26,340 bases of DNA. It comes from Chromera velia. Its lineage: Eukaryota; Sar; Chromeraceae. How positions within the stretch are numbered: position 1 is the stretch's first letter; the number at the start of each line of letters is the position of its first letter. Shown here in pieces: positions 8,510 through 21,637 of this stretch. Both the position numbers and the translations under genes were made by a program. Below the pieces are notes generated by a model. The model searched no databases. It was not told where the DNA came from and saw only the letters and a list, made by a program, of their open reading frames with translations. The stretch spans positions 5,001 to 31,340 of the forward strand of contig JAHBMJ010000302.1 of assembly GCA_018398765.1 (NCBI GenBank), read 5' to 3'.

Positions 8510-9640
8510 ATGAGAGCCAAGCGCTTTTTCAAAGCGCTTGCTTCTCTTGGGTGGTTTGCACTTCAGCAATTGCCACCGGTGGAGGGAAATTTGGACATGG
8601 GGGAGAGATTAGAGTTTGGGGATTTCCTCAAGGGGTTGCCAAAGTTGGACAGCTCTGGCTTTGACTTTTCCAAATTGGATGATTCTTTTGCCGGAGACGA
8701 CGTCAGTGATTCTCCGATCCCCCCGATGGACTCTGGTCGTATGAAAGTGCCCGAAGGATTCAGCATTTCACTGGACGGGCTTTTTAAGAATTTCGCAGAT
8801 AAATCTCCTGCAATTGAAGAGGGGACATACGACTACATCGTCAACGGGGGGGGGGGTGCTGGATTGATCGTTGCACAAACCCTTGCAGAAAACGGCTACT
8901 CCGTTTTGGTCGTGGAAAGAGGCCCGACGAGGGAGGTGGCAGGGGACCCTGTGCAGTACAAGCGGTTCGTTGGGTATGAACGTCTGTACCGTCAGGTGAA
9001 TGAAAACGTCATTACCAGACAGGGCGTCAGATCGAATGCCGGTCGGGTTCTCTCGGGAGGCACAGCAATCAATCAGGGCATCATCATTGCAGAAACACCT
9101 GAGTACTTTGGCTGGCTCAACAGGGCACATGGAATCGATCTGGACATGACCCTCATCAATGAATCCTACGAATATGTCTTTAACCGAATGTCAGAGTCTC
9201 CGCAAACTGATTCCACACTCACGGGGGGTACTTTCGATCTGCCTCTCGACCACTTGAAGGAAGCGCTGACGGCCGAAGGTCAGTCAATTTTGGAAAACTT
9301 GGTGAGAATGCATGTTTGCGTGCCACCTCAACGTAGATCGAGACTTTTCTACGGTCATTCCCGCCGTAGACCCTTTTTAAGCCTCAAACTGCTCACTAGC
9401 TCCATCCATCACTGCAGGATTCTCCCCACATGATTTCCACAGCGAGACCCTTTTCACCGATGGGTGGTGGCAGACCTACAGCGCTTTCAACACAACGCCG
9501 GGCTCCTACCCGACAGAACCTCTGAACGAGATTGGAGTAAGAGCGGCGTCGGACAACTTTGTGGACTTCTCGCTCCCCAATTTGCGAATTGCAACGGATT
9601 CAACGGTGCTGAAGGTCTGCACGGACTTTGTCCTTGTCAA

Positions 9641-9721
<81 letters not shown>

Positions 9722-12700
9722 GAGACCTTCATTTGGCTTGAACATCAGCATTGGCGCCTCTCTGCTTGCGCGAAATGCGTTTGTTCTGCAAACAGCCGAC
9801 GAGCACATGAACCTGAACTCTAGGTCTTCAAGTCTGCGTAAAAGAACGACATCGGGACCTTGAGTGGGCGTGTGAGCGAGAAAGGAAGATGCCGTGTGTA
9901 TATTTCTGCATGTTTGCCTACGTGGATGAGTGAGTGAGCGATTGAATGAGTGTCTGTGCAGGTTGAGTTTGAGACGCCTTCAGACGGCAGTGAGCCCATT
10001 GCCCAGTGCGTGCTCTGGGAAGACACAGAGAAGCTGGACATCGTCGACCAGCAAGTGGACTACACAGAGGACCCCTGGAAACCCGCTGGCGGTAGGTCGG
10101 ACTGGCGTGTACGCTGTGGCGCAGATGCGCGTCTGGCAGGTGCCACGAGAAAGACCAAGCCAGCAGTCACTTCGAGGAAGAGACTGCGAATGAGTGGAAG
10201 GGAATAGGGAAAGTCAACCAGCATGATTGCATTCGAATTTGAATCGTTTATGCATTGTTGTTTCTTTCTGGGAATATGTGTTCCTCGTCTTTTCTTCTTA
10301 CTCATTTCTTGTTTTTTCTTCTTCTCTGAGGAGCAGAGGGGTTCCATGTTCCTCCTCGTGCTCTGAGCCAGACTGTTCTCATTCATTCAGTCCCGAGCCT
10401 GCTTCCTTATCCTCCTGCCGTCTCTCTTGCGCTTGTGCAGGCCAGCTGGAGAACGCAATCTCAAAACAGAAGGTGGCGTACTGGCTTCTTCTTCTTGAGC
10501 TCTCTCCCGCAGCCCCTTTCGCCGAGTACCCGGGTGCAGACTCTCAGGACGCCCAGATTGCCCGTCAAATCATGATGCTGCAGAGACTCGACGCGGCTGT
10601 CGGGGGCGTGGGCCTTCATGAACTCGGCCTTGAGCGTTTGGACCTCCCCAAGTCTTTTGGCCTGGGCGCAGGTCGCTTCTTTCCCTCTGTGAATGAGCTG
10701 ACGAAGACAGATGCGGGGTCTGCCTATATCAGGAGACTGGCACGGCGTCTGGACTCTGCTGCATCTGGAGGAAAAATCAAAAGGCATAGAGCTTGTCTGT
10801 CTGACTTTGCCCATGCAGAAATCATCATGTCTGCTGGTGCAATCCACACCCCAGCAATTCTGTATAAGTCAGGGGTTGGCCCGAAGGAACTGATCAAGGA
10901 CAAGTACAAGTACGATCTGGTCGTGGAAAGTCCGTACTTGGGGAAGAACCTCCACGACCGCCTCATTCTTCCGGTAGCCACGTTCATCAGGGAGGAAGTC
11001 AGAGACGCAGTGACGGAAAGTGCAAAGACAGACTATGGAAAGTACGATGTTCTCAGAGCAACCTCTGCAGAAATTGCAGGGCTGTCCAATTTCGGATCCG
11101 ACTGCAGCAGCTGGGAGGGTCTGGACAACGAGGACGACACCTGCGCGTAAGTGGGTGGGCAGCCGGGGTTTTTTCTGGCCATATAGATTCATTTTTGTGT
11201 ATCGACAGGAGTAGGATATTTCTCCGGTTGAATAGATTGAAGCGTTTAGGCAGAATTAAGTTGAGGGGGGGTCTCGCTTTTGAGGGCCGGAATCGAAGAA
11301 GAGTTCTGAGAAGTAGTTTTGTTTGCACTCCAGGCATCGGCAACAAAACTCAGAAAGGGGCGATGCAGTTGTTCGGGACTTTACACTTGGATCGCTTGGT
11401 CCCACCATTGATTTTTAGAGAGAAGGTGTGTGAGTGAAACGAAATGTTGTGAGTCACGTACAGCATACACACAGACACTGTCTCCAGTAGCGGACACATA
11501 GTAAACAACGGATGGCGTCACAATCCATATTCATTCTTTGATCTCTCTGCAGGTATGTGTTGATTGAAGAGAACTCGTTCGGTCACCTGATCGAGGGTGT
11601 TCTGTTCCAGTCGAGGTTCATCTTTCCCCCCTCACTCCGGAACTCCAAGGCTGCCGACACCATCATGTCCTACAACAAACTATGTCAGCCAGCTAGCATG
11701 TTCTGTTTTTGTCGTGCGTGATGCTGCTCAAGATCCGCAAGTAGTGGGAGAAAGGAAGCGAAGAGACACGAATGAATCTAGGGGCCGGCTGATGAATTCA
11801 TCATGCTGATTGCCCTGCTGCAACTTTTCTCCTTTGGAATCCCTGCTTCTCTCCTTTCCTTGTATCGTCCATGTTTTTCGTTCATTCTTTCTTTGATGTT
11901 CCGCTCTTTCGCTCCAATTTATCCCGCTGCAATTTTCTTTCCGCGTCTGCAGAAGAGTGTGCGTTTGCACGTGGAATTGTGGGTGTAAGTGCTGGCCATG
12001 TTCCCATTCAAAAGTGTTTTGGATCTGAAGAACTAGGCAAACTCTCATAGACAGCAGGTGATGCGGCCATACCAGATGCGGAGTAGTGATACACAGATGA
12101 GTGTATTTCTGTATAGATGTGCGTGGTTTCCTTCCTTTTTGTATATTTCTCAAATATGAACAAGGCACTGCAGGTGATGCTGCTGTGCCAGACGCGAGGT
12201 TTGCCCCCATCTGCAAATCCATCAACTTCCAGGAGCTCTACGACTGTCTCGAGAGAGCGGCAGGATGGGCCTCTATCGTTTCTGTGCCTGTGTCGAGAGG
12301 AACCATTGATCTCAACGAGAAAGGTGAGCAGAAATAAGAGCATTGTCTTGTGCCGCATCATCAGACTCTAGTCATCCGAGAGGAGTGCCAAAGAAAGGAA
12401 CTTCAAGAAAGTCGAAAGGTTCCACTCAAAACCGACAACCGGCTTTTTGGGTGACCAACACCCTTAGCTTGCTGTGAAAGGTTGAAAAATGAAGGTGTTG
12501 ACCGACCTCTCGCAGAGGATTCTCGATGTAGCATGCCTGAGTCCAAAAGAGAAATGAAGGGTGTATAGGAGGTACGTGTCTTTTTTTGAACGCTCGAATC
12601 CCGAATCTTTCTCATCTTCCTACATGCGCTCATTTGTCTTCCTGCCTGCCTCTGCCTGTCTGCTCAATCCTCTGCCTGCAGGAGAGGTCCTCGTCGACCC

Positions 12701-14564
12701 TAACTACCTCGATGACCCTCGAGACAGAAGGGCAGCGGCAGAGGGCGTAAGGAAGCTGCGGCAACTTTGGACGACTGTCGAGAACGACCCGACAAAGAGG
12801 GCCATCTATGAGTCAGAAGACGACAGCAAAAACAAGCAGATGTGCCCAGCAACAATCTTCAATATTCTCCTTTCTGCTGCAGAGAACATCTTCTCGCTCT
12901 TCACTCTCCAGTCAGACAACCTCGTTCGGTTGGACATGGAGAAGGTCAGCAGACAAATGAAATTTAGAAACTTGCTTTTCAGGGGGAGAATTCCAGTTTT
13001 GATTTTGCGAGAGGCTCAAAGCCACTTAGAGATGAGCCTCTCGGCTTGCAAGTACATTTTCCTTCATCAGCTACCGCAAATAGACAAGTCCCCCCCGAAA
13101 ATTCCTGGCTCTTTCATCCAGAGTTTATTCTTTGGATCAGCGTCCAAAAGATAAAACAAGATAGGCGATGGAAGGACATGGCGTTGATGCTAAGATTTGC
13201 ATGCAATCAATGTGATGGTTGTTGCAGATTATCAATTACCTGAAAGCAGTCATCAAGGACCCCATGGCGGCTGCTCGAGACAACACTGAGGGCAAACCTG
13301 ACAGCTCCAGGCCGAAGGATCCCGCTGACAGAATCCTCTACTTCCCGGGCCTTCCCAACAGTCAGTCAGCCTGTATATCAGTCTGTATCTGAGTCGGTCA
13401 GCTTGAAGAAGGGTTGGGATCACAGAGGATATGGCAAAAACAAATTGAACCACTCTGATGCTGCTCCCCTCCGCGCAAAAAAACGGGTGCTGTTTGTGCT
13501 CTTTAGCTTCGAAGTTTTCTTCCCGAGACTTTCAAGAGGCGATCCCCCATTTTGTTTTTACGCGCGCCACCAGGGAAGAAAACACTTGGTTGAATCTTCA
13601 TTTTGTTGTTTTCGATTTTTGAGAAGACTTGGTCGAATGTCTGTGATTGCATAAGCGTTGGTCGCAGTCGAGGACATTGACGATGACAAGCTGATGCTGG
13701 ACTTTTACGCAACTTTTGGGACCTCCATGTGGCATATGGCCGGGTACGTGAGTTCATGCAGCAATCAATGCTTACGTGCTGCTTCGATTGATTCGCATCT
13801 GCTTTGAGGGTGTCTGGGAATGCTCTGTCTGGGGGTCTGAGAATTCTTTCCCCTTTTATTCGCATTTTTTTCATTGCAAAGAAACATACTGCACTCCTGC
13901 ACTTGGGATCTTCGACGCAGCAGGGCAGCATCTCCAGCATGCCTGGACAGCAGGAGGGAGGGAGGGAGGGANNNNNNNNNNNNNNNNNNNNNGGAGGGAG
14001 GGAGGGAGGGAACAGGAAGACCCACCCCGACTTACTCTCTTTTCTGCACGTACGTGCATTCCTGGCTGATTTAAGCTAAATGGAGTCCTGCGGAAAGGAT
14101 TTGTATGATTGATGTATGCAACGCGATCCAGTCGCGAAAAGCAGGCTCGAAGGTTGCGAATTCGATTGAAATTCTTTTTGTCATGAAGAGAGAAGATGTA
14201 GGATGAATGACGCAGCACATGTTGTTTTGTGTCATCCCTCTGGGTGTCTATTGACGAGTCTGCTGTCTGCATATCGGATCCAAAACGAACTGACTGCAGG
14301 ACCGCCAAGATGGGCCAGGATGACGATCCGACAGCAGTGCTCAGAAACGATTTCACCTTCAAAGGTGCTAAGCGGCTCGCAGTCATCGATGCGTCCGTCT
14401 TCGCTCAGCTGACCCGAGCCAACCCCGCCATCACAGTACAGGCCTTGGGACGGTATGCAGGCCTACTAAGGGTGCAGAAGAATTCTGCTGTGTCCTCTTC
14501 TTCTACGGGAGCGTCCATGCCCATCCTGTCGAGCCTGTTGCAGGGAGGGAAAATAGGGGGGTGA
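8510..14564 (+). CDS. Secreted GMC-family FAD oxidoreductase, ten exons, 939 residues
   Basis: Exons: 8510-9278, 9418-9614, 9962-10091, 10441-11146, 11553-11683, 12174-12323, 12682-12944, 13228-13360, 13668-13743, 14300-14564. They sum to 2820 nt with every phase consistent. Residues 1-26 look like a signal peptide (basic start, FFKALASLGWFALQ core). Residues 107-138 are the Rossmann FAD site (YDYIVNGGGGAGLIVAQTL, ending VVERG). VLSGGTAINQG near 180 and AGAIHTPAILYKSGVG from 497 are the two GMC signatures. WHMAGTAKMG gives the catalytic His849, and Asn893 (RANPAITVQALG) is the second active-site residue; the 44-residue spacing is normal for the family. GMC enzymes oxidise alcohols, sugars or choline-like substrates; the substrate here is unknown. 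The protein is longer than the usual 550-650 residues because of an N-terminal extension of about 100 residues and roughly 100-120 extra residues around 366-485 in exon 4. A small hidden intron in exon 4 (10471-10584) is possible but not needed. Confidence 0.9.
9644..9710. repeat. Compound (CA)n(GA)n microsatellite in GMC intron 2
   Basis: About 17 CA units run directly into about 14 GA units, then a few GAGC units. It sits inside the intron between exons 2 and 3 and gives spurious His/Thr and Arg/Glu frames. It is likely to vary in length between strains. Confidence 0.9.
13951..14010. repeat. (GGGA)n repeat with a 21-base assembly gap
   Basis: GGAGGGAG units on both sides of an N run at 13972-13992 show that the assembler failed to close a GGGA tetranucleotide repeat. 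It lies in GMC intron 9, so the coding sequence is unaffected. The true length of the repeat is unknown. Confidence 0.9.
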
Positions 14565-16320: not shown

Positions 16321-18719
16321 TCAATGAGTACGCACTCTCTCCGGGCTTGGAAGAGGCGACTCGAGGTCAACGAAATCGTCTAGATCCTCCTGCTCTTCTT
16401 CATCGGAAGAGGCGTCCCCAGTTCCGCCCCTAGGCTGAGGGCACAACTGGGGAGACGACTGGGAGGTCTCCCACTGAGGGGGTACCGGGGGTCCTCTATG
16501 TCCGAACGTCGAGAGACTTCGGGGAGGGGGGAGATCGTTCATCTCACCTCCCACCGCCTGATCTGACTCTCTCTCTTCATTTTGTGCCTCCAGATCGATT
16601 TCCTGACTCTTTTCGGCAGCCTTTTCATCAACCGGAGGTGTCACGACATTTGCTTCTTGGGACTCCCTATGGGGGGGGCGGAGACCCAAAAGGGCGGGGA
16701 CAGAAGAGACGACCCCTCGGACCCGGGATGCGACACTTGTCGACTTGCTGGGCCTTTTCTCTTGATCTTTTGTCTCTTTTTCTGCGCCGCCGTTGGAGTC
16801 CTGTGCTGCTGTTTTGATGGTCGGTGGAGTTTTCTTCTTTGTGGGCTTGAAACAGACAAGACAACCGGCAAGACAGCCGGCAAAAATACCCCCAAGCCAG
16901 AGGAAAAACGCACAAGACTGCTTTCCTATAAAATTACACGCTGCCAAACAACCCTTCCACAGACTGACCAATCCAACCACCAAACCATTCCAGATTGCAC
17001 CAAGTCGGGCTGCAATTGGAGACCACACAAAGGCACACCTGTGTGCACATGAGGTCCACGTGAGGGAGTAGCAGAGAGCAAAAGCAGCCCAACAATTCGA
17101 ACAGCCGGTTGAAAACGAGGTCCACAGCGCAGTGCAACCTTTTCTAATGGGATGCCACGTAGCGTTGCAGCACGCAATCACACGTGCCCACAGGCTGGTG
17201 AGGAATACACCCACAGGAGTGCACACAAATGTGCAGAAGGATGCTACTCTTTTCCAGAGGCCTGAGGCACAGGCACCCACTGGTTTCCACACAGTGGTGC
17301 AGAATGCTGCAATACGTGCCCAGACGCTTGCAAAGAATCCAGCGACGGGCTTCCACACAGCGGTGCAGAAAGCCGCTACCCGCAGCCAGATGCTTGAAAA
17401 GAAAACCCCCACGGGATGCCACACAGCGCAGCACCACACACAGAAGGTGCCCCAGGCAGCCGCACAGCACGAGGCGGCGGTGGTGCACCAGCGGGGAGGC
17501 CCTCTTTGGGAAGCGAACTGACACCACTTCAGTCGAGCCAGGCATGTGCCTGCTGCGACTGCGGCAATTCCGAGCATGCGGGTGAGGGCAGCACAGGCAG
17601 CGGTTACTCTGTTGAGGCAAAAAAAGAAACCGATTCCGGTGATGTTGCTGAGAATACCGAGGACCAAGCAGACGGCAAAGAATGCCCATGAGAGCCTGTT
17701 CATGCCAAGATAAGTCCTTTTTATTGCCTGCCTCTCGGCTATCCTTTCAGCATCCGCAATACCTCCCTCCCTCTCCCGAGACTGATCTGTCTCCTCTCCT
17801 CCTGTGCTTGGATCGCTGGGTGGGGGCCCTCCTCGTCCATTTTCTAAATTTTCCTCTTTGGGGTCTCGCGAGGGGGGAGAAGAATGTTGGGCCGGCGGTT
17901 CGTTGCTTGAAGGAGGGGCAGAAGAGGTTGCAGGTTCTCTAGCGGTGGCAGGAGGAGGCGAATCGCCCCCAGAGGGCATGGAGGGTTGCGGGTTCGAAGA
18001 AGGGGGGGGAGGCACCGGCTCAGTGGGGGTTGGGCCGGAAGGGATTCCTGCGGGAGGTTGTGCTGTTGGGATGAGGGCTGAGTGGGGGGGAGGAGGGGTG
18101 GCTTGACGCTGTGAAGGGGGGAGGCTGGGTTGGTTGGGCGATGGGGATGAAGAGGGAGGAGGTGTCCCTCCAGGAGTGCGTTCGACTGGGCTGTGTGGAG
18201 GCGGGGGGGGAGGTGCAGATCCTCCTGCGTTGCTGGATGGGGGCGGGATCGGGTTGTTGGGAGAGGTCGCGGGCGCACCTGTCGGAGAAGTGGCTTGGTT
18301 GTTCGAGGGAGGAACAGGTTGCCGTGCCTCTGCGTCTGGGCGTGTGGAATCGCCATCAGACCCTGGAGCTGGTGGTTGCGTTCCTGTGGAAGGGCTTGTG
18401 GGTGTGTTTGGGGATGTCCGCTGGCCTGTTCCACGTCCAGGTAGGACGCTTCCTGCAGGTAGTGGCCCCATATTGAAGGGAAAGCGTGGGGGGATTCTCT
18501 GTCCCCCCCCCATGTTGCTTCTGCTTCCAGGAGGCCCAATCGGGAAGGATGGGACAGGACGGGAATCTGTTCCTTCGTGTACAGTAGGGTCATCTGAGAT
18601 GGTGGAATATCTGTACGTGGTCCTGGTGGATGTCCTTGTGCCCATCAAGGCGAAAGGCAGAACGATGGCTAGGGTTAAACAGACCAGCACAAGGGCCAGG
18701 AGATTGGCAAATGCAGCCT
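16321..18719 (-). CDS. Proline-rich membrane protein with tandem 11-residue Trp repeats
   Basis: One long exon of about 799 codons (numbering below starts at codon 18777). It opens after a likely acceptor (GTACTTGCAG, ending at 18720), because no ATG precedes the first hydrophobic helix. Residues 21-46 are a membrane segment (ANLLALVLVCLTLAIVLPFA). Residues 60-340 are Pro/Ser/Gly/Gln-rich. Residues 363-390 are a second hydrophobic segment (SWAFFAVCLVLGILSNITG). Residues 451-626 are about sixteen 11-residue units, nearly all with Trp at position 3 and many with Cys. The units alternate as VWKPV-type and VWARI-type, giving a 66-bp DNA period. The tail has a basic KPTKKK patch and then a long polar, acidic C-terminus (SSDEEEQEDLDDFVDLE). 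I do not recognise the family. The repeats suggest an amphipathic or membrane-embedded helical array. A possible first exon with ATG at 19263 (MSKQNNRAAAERHEKEQ) could join in phase 0, but its donor is weak. Confidence 0.75.
16900..17427 (-). repeat. Sixteen tandem 33-bp units (11 residues each) with conserved Trp
   Basis: Reading down the minus strand from 17427, each 33 bases encode 11 residues, and 14 of 16 units have Trp at position 3. The fourth 22-residue pair has Cys in its first half, and the last unit lacks the Trp. Clear pairs are 17427-17362, 17361-17296, 17295-17230, 17229-17164 and 17163-17098. Examples: AVWKPVAGFFA followed by SVWARIAAFCT. At DNA level adjacent 66-bp units are only moderately similar, so the array is old and its protein pattern appears to be under selection. 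Confidence 0.85.
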
Positions 18720-19309
18720 GCAAGTACAGAGGACACGGGTTGCTTGTTTGCGGTCCTCTGCAGATTCGAATACCCAAAGCAAAACAAAATTGCAGCCTGC
18801 TCAGGGGAAAGAAATCGGCTTTCTTTGCGTTTCAAAAATAGACAGAAAGAAATGACAGGCAGAGCAGACATCTCGGACGAATACGAAGAAAATTATGATG
18901 AGGAACAAAAAGGAACGCTGATCGAAAGAGGTGCGGACTGACTGACGATTCGGGTTCCTCGAGTCCGTCTCTTCCTGTCAAGCAGACAAAAACCCCAGAT
19001 CGCACCTGTAGATCAGACAGCGTTGAGGGGCACAATTTGAGTTTTCAAGAAAGAAGGTGGCCTTTTGTGTGGGAAAATTTCAGGGGCACAGTCGATCGTT
19101 TGCAGATGCCTTGCTGAAGCAATAAACAAAAGTAAAAATGGGGCTGCAGGATACGTGGAAAAGGAACTTTTGCTGTTTCCCCTCTCCCCCTTTCCATCTT
19201 GCCCTCGTAATTCTGCTCTTTCTCGTGCCTCTCTGCAGCCGCCCTGTTGTTCTGTTTACTCATCTGCCTGTCTGTCCCTTGTTCTCCGATCTTTCTACCT
19301 CTTTTGTCA
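18720..19309 (-). other. Unresolved 5' region of the Trp-repeat gene
   Basis: The 590 bases between the two minus-strand genes must hold the promoter and the first exon or exons of the Trp-repeat gene, or else further exons linking it to the kinase-like gene. Candidates on the minus strand are ATG at 19263 with a hydrophilic start, ATG at 18871 (MSALPVISFCLFL), and a good donor CAG|GTGCG at about 19003. None gives a complete phase-consistent join with a strong donor. Confidence 0.35.
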
Positions 19310-21637
19310 TCAGAACGAATGCTGACCGATGGCCCACGGAAAGCCCAAAAAGAATCCGGTGCCGAAAAGGATCCAAAGAAGGCAAGTGGGATCCTTCAGA
19401 CCTCTCTCTGCCCTCTGCTCTCCCAGAAGAGTAGCTCCCTTCAGGGGGTCCTCTTGCTCATCAATGGAAGCCAAGCCATGATTTTGGGGGACAAAACTCG
19501 GGTCCGACACTGCCACAGGTTGACTCGGAGCTGTGCGCGAACCTGACGCTGCACAGGATGTTAACATATGGAGAGTGCACGTCAATGTTCTGGAAGAACC
19601 TTTGAGATTGTATGAGTCATCACGCGGTTTAACGAGCATTCATGCGGCTCAGTGAAAGAAAAAACGTTGCCATTTTTGAGAACGAGAGCGAAGGAATGCG
19701 ATCGAGTAGGAAGGAATGAAAAGAACAAGACACCCGTGGACGTGGTCGCTGTTTTCGGATCCTCAGCTTGCGGATGAACAAAACAGAGCGACACAAAAGG
19801 GCTCTTCGGCAAGCCGGGACACACTCCACTTACCGGTGGATGATCTGGCCTGCCCCCTCTGGTTGTTCTGGGAAGTCGCGCAGGGGTGAAGGGAATCCTC
19901 AGGGGCTGCGTTGACTTCGTGTTCCTCTGCAAGGGGGGGCAGCCGGGGGGTAGAGAAGAAGGGGCGGGCAGCATGGCCCCTTTTTCCAAATCCTCCTTTC
20001 CTCTCTTCTTTTGCTTCCACCACAACGTTGTACAGGCAGCTGGGCCGAGGTCCCTGGAGTCTCTGCATGGACCGAGGGGGGAGGAGAAGGGATCGAGAGG
20101 AAGCAAGAAAGTGATGGCATAAACAAGATGACTGCAATTAAAAAATGCAGTACACATGACCTACCTGCTGATTGCTACTTTCTCTCACTGATCTGTATGA
20201 GTGGTATCTATGTCTGCCTGCCTAGAAAGAGAGAAATGGATGAGCAGCAGTCGAGGGGTCAGTCAGTCAGTCAGTCAGTCAGTCAGTCAGTCAGTCAGTC
20301 AGTCAGTCAGTCAGTCAGTCCTCTTCAACCCCCCTTTGCCTCTCTGGGCCGCCCTCGCCTTTCTAACCTGCAAGTAGGTGAGGTTCTTGGTATTTACAGT
20401 GGGGTTTTGCGTGTCTTTGAACACCATCATTGTGTTTCCAAAAGTAATGCATACGCCTGCAGGCACCATGCAGGGCAGACAGAGGATGACAGGCAATTTA
20501 TGTCAAGTGAGGGAATCACATCCATGAACGAATCCACGGTGAGGCGTCAAGAAACAAAGAAAAAGCAGACAAACAGCGTTTGGAGAGAAAGAAAGGAATT
20601 CTAAGAATGGAAGCGGGAGTACGACGCAGGGGTTGACATCCCTCTCTTCTCCTCAAAAAGCTGCAAGCATCCCAAAAGTCAAAAGTTCCCCTTCTCTTTC
20701 CCCCTCTTCTCCAGCTGAAGCTGCTCAATGACCCACCGATCTACCAGCGAACCGACCTATGCATCTGGGATAGTCTGGGGTTTTTGCTGATCGATCCTGC
20801 ACTCTCCTAATTGCCTCCTCCATGGCTTTCAAGGACGTCGCGTGTCGGCAATACTCTTCGTACAGCATGGAGTGGTACAGAGTCCTCTTCATCGTCCGGG
20901 AGGCCTCAGCTGCTGCCTTTCTCTTCAAACTTGGGTGGAACTCTATCGGTTCAGCATCAAAAGTCTTCACAACCACTGGGTTCCCTCTGTACGTGCTTTT
21001 GAAAGCCTGCACATTTGAAACGGGCATTTGAATCTGTTTTGTAGAAGAAATCAGTCGGCAAAACAGCACTGGTTTGTTGTGTGAAACCCAAAGGATACCC
21101 GGAGAGCAAAAGAGAGAACGAGGAGGGAAGGGTACATCAACCGACCGGGCCGCTCCACATTTGAAGATAGTCGTCTGTTGAGCTGTTGAGAGTAACTCCA
21201 GTGGGAGGGGTTGCTGTCTGTTTGCCCTTTTGAGGTTCTTGTACGTCAGGAAAACTTTCGATGAGGTCGGAGTAGGACAGGAGAGGAATTGCGTTCTCCT
21301 CTCGCACCATCCCGGGAACTTGAACCTCATGATCATAAACTTTCAACACATTCTGCCGTAGGGCTCTTTGTTGCTTTCGAAGGAAAGGGAGGACAATACG
21401 GGTGAAGGTTTCGATATCCTCCTGCAAAGATGTATGTATAAACATGTATATATTTGAATACTCTGCACGGAATAAGAAGAAACAAACCACACACGAATAA
21501 GAACCAGACGCGCCAAGAATGACCCGTACCTTGACGAGAGTCTGGGCTTCTTCCCACAGTGGAGATCCCTTGAGTGATTCGATGTCCTTTGGTGACCAGC
21601 CAGCCAAGCAACAGTGTTCACGAAGAAAGTTCTCCAT
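19310..21637 (-). CDS. Kinase N-lobe-like protein with C-terminal hydrophobic segment, seven exons, 428 residues
   Basis: Exons on the minus strand: 21637-21530, 21421-21146, 21033-20745, 20456-20368, 20221-20165, 20062-19834, 19548-19310, summing to 1287 nt with all phases consistent. Residues 1-128 are helical and charged. From about 133 the sequence resembles a protein-kinase N-lobe: FKSTYRGNPVVVKTF with the VxVK lysine at 151, a long helix with EEYCRH near 187 in the place of helix C, then YPRCIGRF and CITFGNTMMVFKD as strands 4 and 5. No glycine loop of normal form, no HRD and no DFG follow. The next exons are basic and Pro-rich, and the protein ends with a hydrophobic segment at about 403-424 (CLLWILFGTGFFLGFPWAIG), a possible tail anchor. 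It may be a pseudokinase fragment or a lineage-specific family. The similarity is by eye and the fold call is tentative. A donor-like GTCAGC just after PWAIG leaves room for further exons. Confidence 0.55.
20258..20320. repeat. (CAGT)n microsatellite
   Basis: About 15 perfect CAGT units lie in the intron between exons 4 and 5 of the kinase-like gene. The repeat gives a Ser-Gln-Ser-Val shadow frame on the plus strand. Confidence 0.95.

Follow-up and report, generated by a model that had tools for sequence, protein, structure and literature searches.

The window analysed here, a 26,340-nucleotide stretch of the Chromera velia genome (contig JAHBMJ010000302.1, positions 5,001 to 31,340), contains on its minus strand a gene for a putative membrane protein with a tandem array of sixteen 11-residue units, fifteen of which carry a tryptophan in register. 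The array is amphipathic with the periodicity of a helix that completes three turns per 11 residues, contains basic and no acidic residues, is read in a coding frame and belongs to a gene with further exons upstream. We favour, at slightly less than an even chance, a reading in which the array forms a cationic amphipathic helix that lies in the plane of a membrane and would scaffold or sense it. Coordinates given without a locus name are positions in the window, and all features of the gene lie on its minus strand.

The array of 11-residue units

The open reading frame (ORF) covers positions 16321-18777 and comprises 818 codons, the first being TTG. Its residues 442-617 (16927-17454) are built from sixteen consecutive 11-residue units. 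Tryptophan occupies residues 442, 453, 464, 475, 486, 497, 508, 530, 541, 552, 563, 574, 585, 596, and 607, and the remaining one of the sixteen register positions between 442 and 607, residue 519, is a cysteine. A preliminary description had reported about sixteen units with a near-constant tryptophan at residues 451-626, corresponding to positions 17427-16900. The array and its register hold, on firmer grounds than first described, and the start moves upstream because one further in-register unit, at residue 442, precedes it. A single phase modulo 11 contains 15 of the 19 tryptophans of residues 393-640, a concentration equalled by none of 20,000 shuffles. In the six frames of the window, array-free 176-residue segments contain at most four in-phase tryptophans, a value reached by 3 of 4,506 segments. 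Among five other stretches of the genome examined, more than four are found only in the gene at C3501 (seven), which is described below.

The units follow the pattern W-x-x-h-x-x-[F/C]-[F/C]-x-x-h. The first nine units from residue 453 alternate between W-x-P and W-x-R (P,R,P,R,P,R,P,R,P); the pairing of VWKPV and VWARI types proposed earlier applies to this part and fades in the later units. Four 66-base duplications, each encoding a 22-residue W-x-P/W-x-R pair, make up residues 453-540 (17158-17421), with pairwise DNA identities of 53-73%. Recognisable DNA duplication is limited to these residues. The 22-mers starting at residues 541, 563, and 585 show DNA identities of 38-48% in pairs with other 22-mers, and they keep the register. 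Residues 453-617 contain 12 Lys/Arg, three His, 15 Cys, and no Asp or Glu. The array has six Pro and, overall, 15-18 Cys, and its grand average of hydropathicity (GRAVY) is 0.89-0.93.

The hydrophobic moment of residues 453-617, calculated on the Fauchere-Pliska scale, peaks at 98.0 degrees per residue with a strength of 0.41 and falls to 0.05 at 100 degrees. The same quantity averages 0.07 in 2,000 shuffles of the array, with a maximum of 0.20. The position of the peak corresponds to 11 residues per three turns, as the preliminary description had predicted. One face of such a helix is nonpolar and consists of Trp (W+0), Val/Ile (W+3), Phe/Cys (W+6/7), and Val/Leu/Ile (W+10), which are the hydrophobic positions of the unit. 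The most polar positions are W+1, W+2, and W+8, and the opposite face carries Lys/Arg/His (mostly at W+1 and W+2), Thr/Ser, and Pro. On the polar side, positions W+1 and W+2 together account for eight of the 12 Lys/Arg; of the other four, one each is found at W+4 and W+5 and two at W+6. Hydropathy in 19-residue windows across the array (n=158) reaches a maximum of 1.78, below the maxima of 2.94, 2.13, and 2.15 in three hydrophobic segments of the same protein (segments 2, 3, and 4, described below).

The substitutions among the repeated units indicate that the array is translated in the ORF frame. Across all six pairs of the four 66-base copies, which are not independent of one another, the ratio of replacement to synonymous differences per site (dN/dS) is 0.34 in that frame. 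For the same copies, the two shifted frames yield 0.87 and 1.68, and one antisense frame yields 1.10. The array frame can therefore be taken as coding, in agreement with the earlier assignment. Replacement differences per site are thus about half of the synonymous ones in the ORF frame alone among the four readings. Neighbouring units differ at codon positions 1, 2, and 3 in 75, 77, and 97 of 154 comparisons, and units two apart in 76, 60, and 77 of 143, where positions 1 and 3 are alike. This count agrees weakly with the coding frame.

Relation to known 11-residue repeats

The sequences most similar to the array among the collections searched are phage tape measure proteins. A PDB search with the ORF returns a tape measure protein (6v8i_CF, E value 5.8e-4) and Gp14 of 9m8o (0.021), and residues 380-640 return the same two entries at 1.3e-3 and 0.0053. 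In PHROGs, the ORF matches nine families at E <= 1, six of them tape measure proteins and three of unknown function. The 165-residue array matches sixteen families, of which ten are tape measure proteins, with a best E value of 1.8e-11. Among phage genomes, 261 of 50,697 records match at E <= 0.01. The best 25 of these 261, which include some pairs of records from one phage, are 18 tape measure proteins, three tail proteins, and four hypothetical proteins, with identities of 21.5-27.1%.

One column-shuffled version of the array scores as well against PHROGs as the real array (E values of 3.1e-12 and 1.8e-11, respectively), one reversed array gives a best E value of 0.28, and one full shuffle gives no match. 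The match therefore stems from the directional pattern of the unit, and the order of the units adds nothing to it. The position-wise hydrophobicity of the array correlates with that of 39 Trp-to-Trp 11-mers from four phage records with a coefficient (r) of 0.97, or -0.63 when the unit is reversed. Without the Trp column, r is 0.95; when the other ten positions are permuted, 12 of 100,000 arrangements get as high. The arrays of the four records have moment peaks at 98.0-98.6 degrees with strengths of 0.42-0.52, similar to those found here, and GRAVY values of 0.55-1.02.

A fixed Trp in an 11-residue repeat, which the preliminary description treated as new, is already on record: tape measure repeats are described as tandem 11-residue units with Trp or Phe at a fixed position (PMC3271669), and the array has this form. 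The Trp/Phe residues are markers along the phage tape, according to two studies (PMC3271669; PMC5099701). As in the repeats of PHROG 4200, 1272, and others, the array combines a period of 11 with a Trp marker and the pattern W-x-x-h-x-x-[FA]-[FA]-x-x-h, and its hydrophobic positions share the register and the direction of the phage units. Similarity to tape measure repeats beyond this register was not found. A tape measure protein is encoded by an intronless gene in a phage genome, whereas the array gene has introns, with exons at shared splice signals, and several membrane segments. The compositions also differ. The four phage arrays contain no Cys, 0-2 Pro, 5-9 Asp/Glu, and 1-13 Lys/Arg, in contrast to the absence of Asp/Glu, the 15-18 Cys, and the Pro at every 22 residues (first half) seen here. 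Basic charge alone does not separate the two groups, since one of the four phage arrays has 13 Lys/Arg. The array shares its helix geometry with tape measure repeats, a resemblance of pattern that does not prove kinship. A match to a known repeat family, which had been named as grounds for rejecting the preliminary description, is therefore present only in part.

The Pfam entry PF05017 ('TMP repeat', WXXh) gives no match with the ORF or the array stretch and none across the genome; it gives none in 14 control genomes either, and the genome search is therefore uninformative. A genome search with phrog_1272 gives no match (320 candidates, two of them scored). Scans of viral and prokaryote contigs with the array find 5 and 61 pattern-matching stretches, respectively, none of them a relative by tblastn, a comparison in which close relatives only are detectable.

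Exchangeable apolipoproteins are composed of 22-residue units, each a pair of 11-mers with one Pro. The 22-residue units of the first half of the array are likewise pairs of 11-mers with one Pro, but have a fixed Trp and no acidic residues and sit in what would be an integral membrane protein. The array also shows the 3-11 periodicity of perilipin-like repeats and, like them, divides into a nonpolar face and a polar one. By analogy with perilipin, alpha-synuclein, and CCT-alpha, such a helix would be likely to bind lipid surfaces; unlike these proteins, the array has a fixed Trp, frequent Cys and Phe, no acidic residues, and flanking membrane segments as a tether. According to a perilipin-4 study (PMC5889406), a 3-11 helix is a conformation open to 11-mer repeats, and the folding of apolipoprotein and synuclein 3-11 helices depends on contact with lipid. 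The same study reports that bigger hydrophobic residues strengthen binding to droplets and bilayers alike, that charge influences targeting, and that each 33-mer of perilipin 4 bears three positive and two negative residues (PMC5889406). If these rules on large hydrophobic residues and charge apply here, an array with a net charge of +12 that is rich in Trp and Phe would be expected to bind anionic bilayers firmly, and not to select droplets.

In the literature examined, mostly open-access articles without their supplements, neither a eukaryotic array of 11-mers with a fixed Trp nor the protein of the window is reported. An intron-bearing gene for a eukaryotic membrane protein is an unusual setting for an 11-residue helix array.

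The host gene and related sequences in the genome

The last exon found is the main one (16321-18717), which ends with the stop codon and begins at the acceptor TTGCAG|GCTGCATTTGCC; homology to a second, decayed copy of the gene at C763 starts at this boundary. Two exons lie further upstream. A 59-base exon (18947-19005) encodes the end of membrane segment 1 and the basic loop DRKRRTRGTR, and its splice signals are common to the C763 copy. At its donor, two GTCAGT candidates lie four bases apart, one of which breaks the frame. The frame-keeping candidate was chosen, and the open frame at this exon is therefore partly by construction; the peptide shared with the C763 copy and a dN/dS of 0.33 (20 codons) lend it independent support. 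The most upstream exon (19327-19567) carries membrane segment 1 (CLLWILFGTGFFLGFPWAIG). Over 19327-19516, its amino acid identity to the C763 copy is 63% and its dN/dS is 0.22. Placing the start codon at 19567 is a guess, and the gene may have another exon 5' to this one. In total, the alignment of the two copies contains three exons with shared splice signals at 19327 (donor), 19005-18947, and 18717 onward, and dN/dS over the 122 codons compared is 0.24, which identifies the upstream exons as real coding sequence. The extent of the gene given in the preliminary description thus holds for the ORF and falls short by at least two exons and one membrane segment.

From the N terminus, the protein is sequentially composed of segment 1, the basic loop, segment 2, a Pro-rich domain, segment 3, the array, segment 4, the basic patch KPTKKK, and an acidic tail. 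The hydrophobic segments on both sides of the array, the Pro-rich domain, the basic patch, and the acidic tail had all been described before and were recovered. The putative membrane segments were assigned from hydropathy and by eye. Segment 2 (AAFANLLALVLVCLTLAIVLPFAL, 18646-18717) has a Kyte-Doolittle (KD) mean of up to 2.94, is kept in the C763 copy, and has limits set by eye. The Pro/Ser/Gly-rich domain (residues 45-340, 17758-18645) has partial copies at C763 and C245. It is followed by segment 3 (residues 361-387, 17617-17697), with a KD mean of up to 2.13, and, beyond the array, by segment 4 (residues 620-643, 16849-16920), a crossing or re-entrant segment with a KD mean of up to 2.15; the limits of both were also set by eye. 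KPTKKK occupies 16831-16848, and the acidic run DEEEQEDLDD is part of the C-terminal tail at 16324-16419.

Family searches return no annotation for the protein. The ORF matches no Pfam family at E <= 1, and at E <= 10 the ORF and the array stretch yield a single sub-threshold match, of the array stretch to SSI (0.041), with no perilipin or other family. The N-terminal exons give sub-threshold Pfam matches to TatC, at 0.063 here and at 0.005 in the C763 copy, and to TgpA_N (4), and one PDB match at 0.099; NCBIfam yields one sub-threshold match at 0.47. A conceivable resemblance of the two N-terminal membrane segments to the plant 60S ribosomal protein L18a-like family is supported by no test. 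The gene resides in a 177.8 Mb genome of 4040 contigs with light-harvesting genes. Profile matches there, counted by exon and not by gene, number 58 for PF00504 (light-harvesting) and 11 for PF12314 (alveolin), the latter of which also matched Caulobacter. The two counts suggest a photosynthetic alveolate; a light-harvesting fragment from the genome has no identical chain among solved structures.

The copy at C763 consists of collinear blocks that match the gene, with in-frame stops in the main exon. At C245, the match is confined to residues 208-341, in the Pro-rich part, and contains no stop in a 185-codon frame. Downstream of the C763 and C245 copies (7.3 and 6.1 kb), no more than four and three in-phase tryptophans per segment were found, respectively. 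The similarity of both copies ends before the array, and neither can therefore date it. A chromodomain-type retroelement frame, recognised by eye, lies about half a kilobase past the last matching part of the C763 copy (C763:100300-103600).

A genome search with a tape measure family returns five matches, namely the window, C3501, and three that were rejected by eye. The second locus is a 620-codon frame on the minus strand (C3501:35797-37656, E value 0.32), in which the best 176-residue stretch has seven of its eight tryptophans in phase. A 198-residue stretch of this frame, chosen post hoc after reading the frame, has a moment peak at 98.0 degrees with a strength of 0.226, compared with a shuffle maximum of 0.164 (none of 2,000 as high). 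In this stretch, 20 residues are Lys/Arg and 18 are Cys, and Asp/Glu are absent. A hydrophobic segment follows it; an Asp lies just before it, and the frame also has out-of-phase tryptophans. Its protein shows no similarity to that of the window at E <= 0.1. A paralog arranged head to head with it (C3501:38185-39246, plus strand) shares the hydrophobic segment and the C-terminal domain with 59% identity, and the open frame of this paralog lacks the array. These features are suggestive of a weaker, Trp-poorer second array of like style in another membrane protein.

The three rejected matches are a simple repeat of Phe/Ile/His/Ser (C946), 66-base units that hardly differ from one another and have a single Trp in every 22 residues (C1352:24336-24734), and about 20 near-identical 33-base units that encode WEGTLTARRSV in a 248-codon frame with 20 in-phase tryptophans (C354:39323-39955, E value 1.2e-5). 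C354 could be a minisatellite, and C354 and C1352 alike could be young repeat proteins. Matches to the array at C1216:35-39 kb (E values down to 7.0e-7) were also rejected, as they belong to an 11-base minisatellite that gives 11-residue peptides in every frame. This minisatellite (C1216:35000-39630) contains open frames of hundreds to 1,444 codons, with 11-residue repeats in three readings, and is a trap for repeat-protein searches. With C354 and C1352 set aside by eye, no further arrays were accepted in these non-exhaustive searches of the genome.

Elsewhere in the window, ORFs at 8510-13150 on the plus strand resemble, by eye, exons of a GMC-type oxidoreductase, and a perfect GTCA tetranucleotide repeat of 15.8 copies occupies 20258-20320.

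A membrane-lying helix and its alternatives

Tryptophan is the usual residue of the membrane interface. Together with the amphipathicity of the entire tract, its purely basic charge, and the flanking membrane segments, this argues for a helix in the plane of the membrane. Further points in its favour are the hydropathy of the array, below the maxima of segments 2, 3, and 4, the constraint on the unit copies and on the upstream exons, the candidate second array at C3501, and the lipid-dependent 3-11 helices of the perilipin-4 study. The protein would then be a multi-pass membrane protein with an amphipathic helix of 165-176 residues and 11/3 periodicity between two hydrophobic segments. The helix would lie in the membrane interface on the side of anionic lipids, where Trp would anchor it and Lys/Arg would bind lipid headgroups. 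The Pro at every 22 residues in the first half may allow the helix to follow membrane curvature, much as the Pro-bearing 22-mers of exchangeable apolipoproteins do. Tethered via its flanking segments, the protein might scaffold, flatten, or sense the membrane. Lineage-specific coating of a membrane, as proposed in the preliminary description, is likewise the guess that we favour. The positive-inside rule would place the Pro-rich part outside and the array inside, with segment 4 leaving the side of the C terminus open.

Several observations weigh against the membrane-lying helix. The topology is ambiguous, in that a single hydrophobic segment separates two basic parts, the array and KPTKKK. Three of the 12 Lys/Arg, at W+4 or W+6, lie on the nonpolar side or its edge, and the regular Pro could break the helix. 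An AlphaFold2 model from the single sequence contains helices, with a mean predicted local distance difference test score (pLDDT) of 52.6 and a predicted template modelling score (pTM) of 0.27, and gives no structural backing; four PDB chains aligned with it (best Z 5.2 at a root mean square deviation of 10.8 Å) were not used. A mean hydropathy of 1.6 is the customary cut-off for a membrane span, and 7 of the 158 array windows are at or above it, with 151 below. Finally, the tape measure arrays of phages do not coat membranes, yet they are equally amphipathic and about as hydrophobic; these two properties therefore do not prove a membrane role. The amphipathicity of the phage arrays and the seven windows at the level of a membrane span make an in-plane helix less secure and structural rivals stronger.

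The main rival is a bundle in which several copies of the 11-residue-repeat helix self-associate side by side, with Trp buried between them. The bundle would work like a tape measure protein, as a rod or ruler with a length of about 25 nm (165 residues at 1.5 Å, by our arithmetic). We give this arrangement perhaps one chance in a few. It would account for the register match to tape measure proteins, both in hydrophobicity (r 0.97) and in the PHROG (1.8e-11) and 6v8i_CF (5.8e-4 and 1.3e-3) searches, and for phage arrays that equal this one in moment and hydrophobicity. A rod fits poorly with the absence of acidic residues, which leaves no inter-helix salt bridges, with 15-18 Cys and six Pro where the four phage arrays have no Cys and 0-2 Pro, and with the location of the array between membrane segments.

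Rather unlikely, and somewhat behind the rod, is a series of short membrane-spanning or re-entrant hairpins with one 22-residue unit per pass and Trp and Lys/Arg at the interfaces. The GRAVY of the array, the seven windows at or above the cut-off, and the 22-residue super-unit, with Pro and often a basic residue beside every second Trp in the first half, are consistent with such hairpins. A tape measure protein, that of TP901-1, likewise has hydrophobic regions with predicted membrane spans (PMC5099701). Lys/Arg are, however, also present in mid-unit (WARI, WKRV), the 98-degree moment is strong throughout the tract, and the other 151 windows stay below the cut-off.

Capture of the array from the tape measure gene of a phage or prophage, followed by loss of acidic residues and gain of Cys, is improbable. 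Tape measure proteins do provide its best sequence matches in the collections searched, but the score of the column-shuffled array equals that of the real one, so only the register is shared. Moreover, the first half visibly arose by local 66-base duplication, the host gene has introns, and the second, Trp-poorer array suggests a local origin. Equally improbable, and already disfavoured, is a neutral minisatellite by-product with no selected role: 11-base and 33-base minisatellites in this genome do give 11-residue peptides (C1216, C354), but in the ORF frame alone among four readings, synonymous divergence per site is roughly double the replacement divergence, the register of the second half persists where DNA similarity is mostly gone, and the first exons of the host gene are under constraint.

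The membrane-lying helix may also have a broader history, which we regard as possible but less likely than not. The lineage would have evolved, without phages, a modular cationic Trp/Cys 11-residue helix. Membrane proteins with no relation to each other, this one and the one at C3501, would have received it as a scaffold lying on the membrane. Such a module would be a eukaryotic counterpart of the tape measure repeat, with Cys in the positions of Phe that might be lipidated or cross-linked.

The sequence rule, a cationic W-x-x-h-x-x-F/C-F/C-x-x-h, supplies a testable search pattern for related algae and protists. If the array does not bind membranes, it would be a clean case of profile searches naming a eukaryotic protein a tape measure by pattern alone. 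If it does lie on membranes, the Trp-marked 11-residue unit of phage tails would be a general way of building very long, straight helices, one that eukaryotes can reach independently and redirect toward membrane scaffolding.

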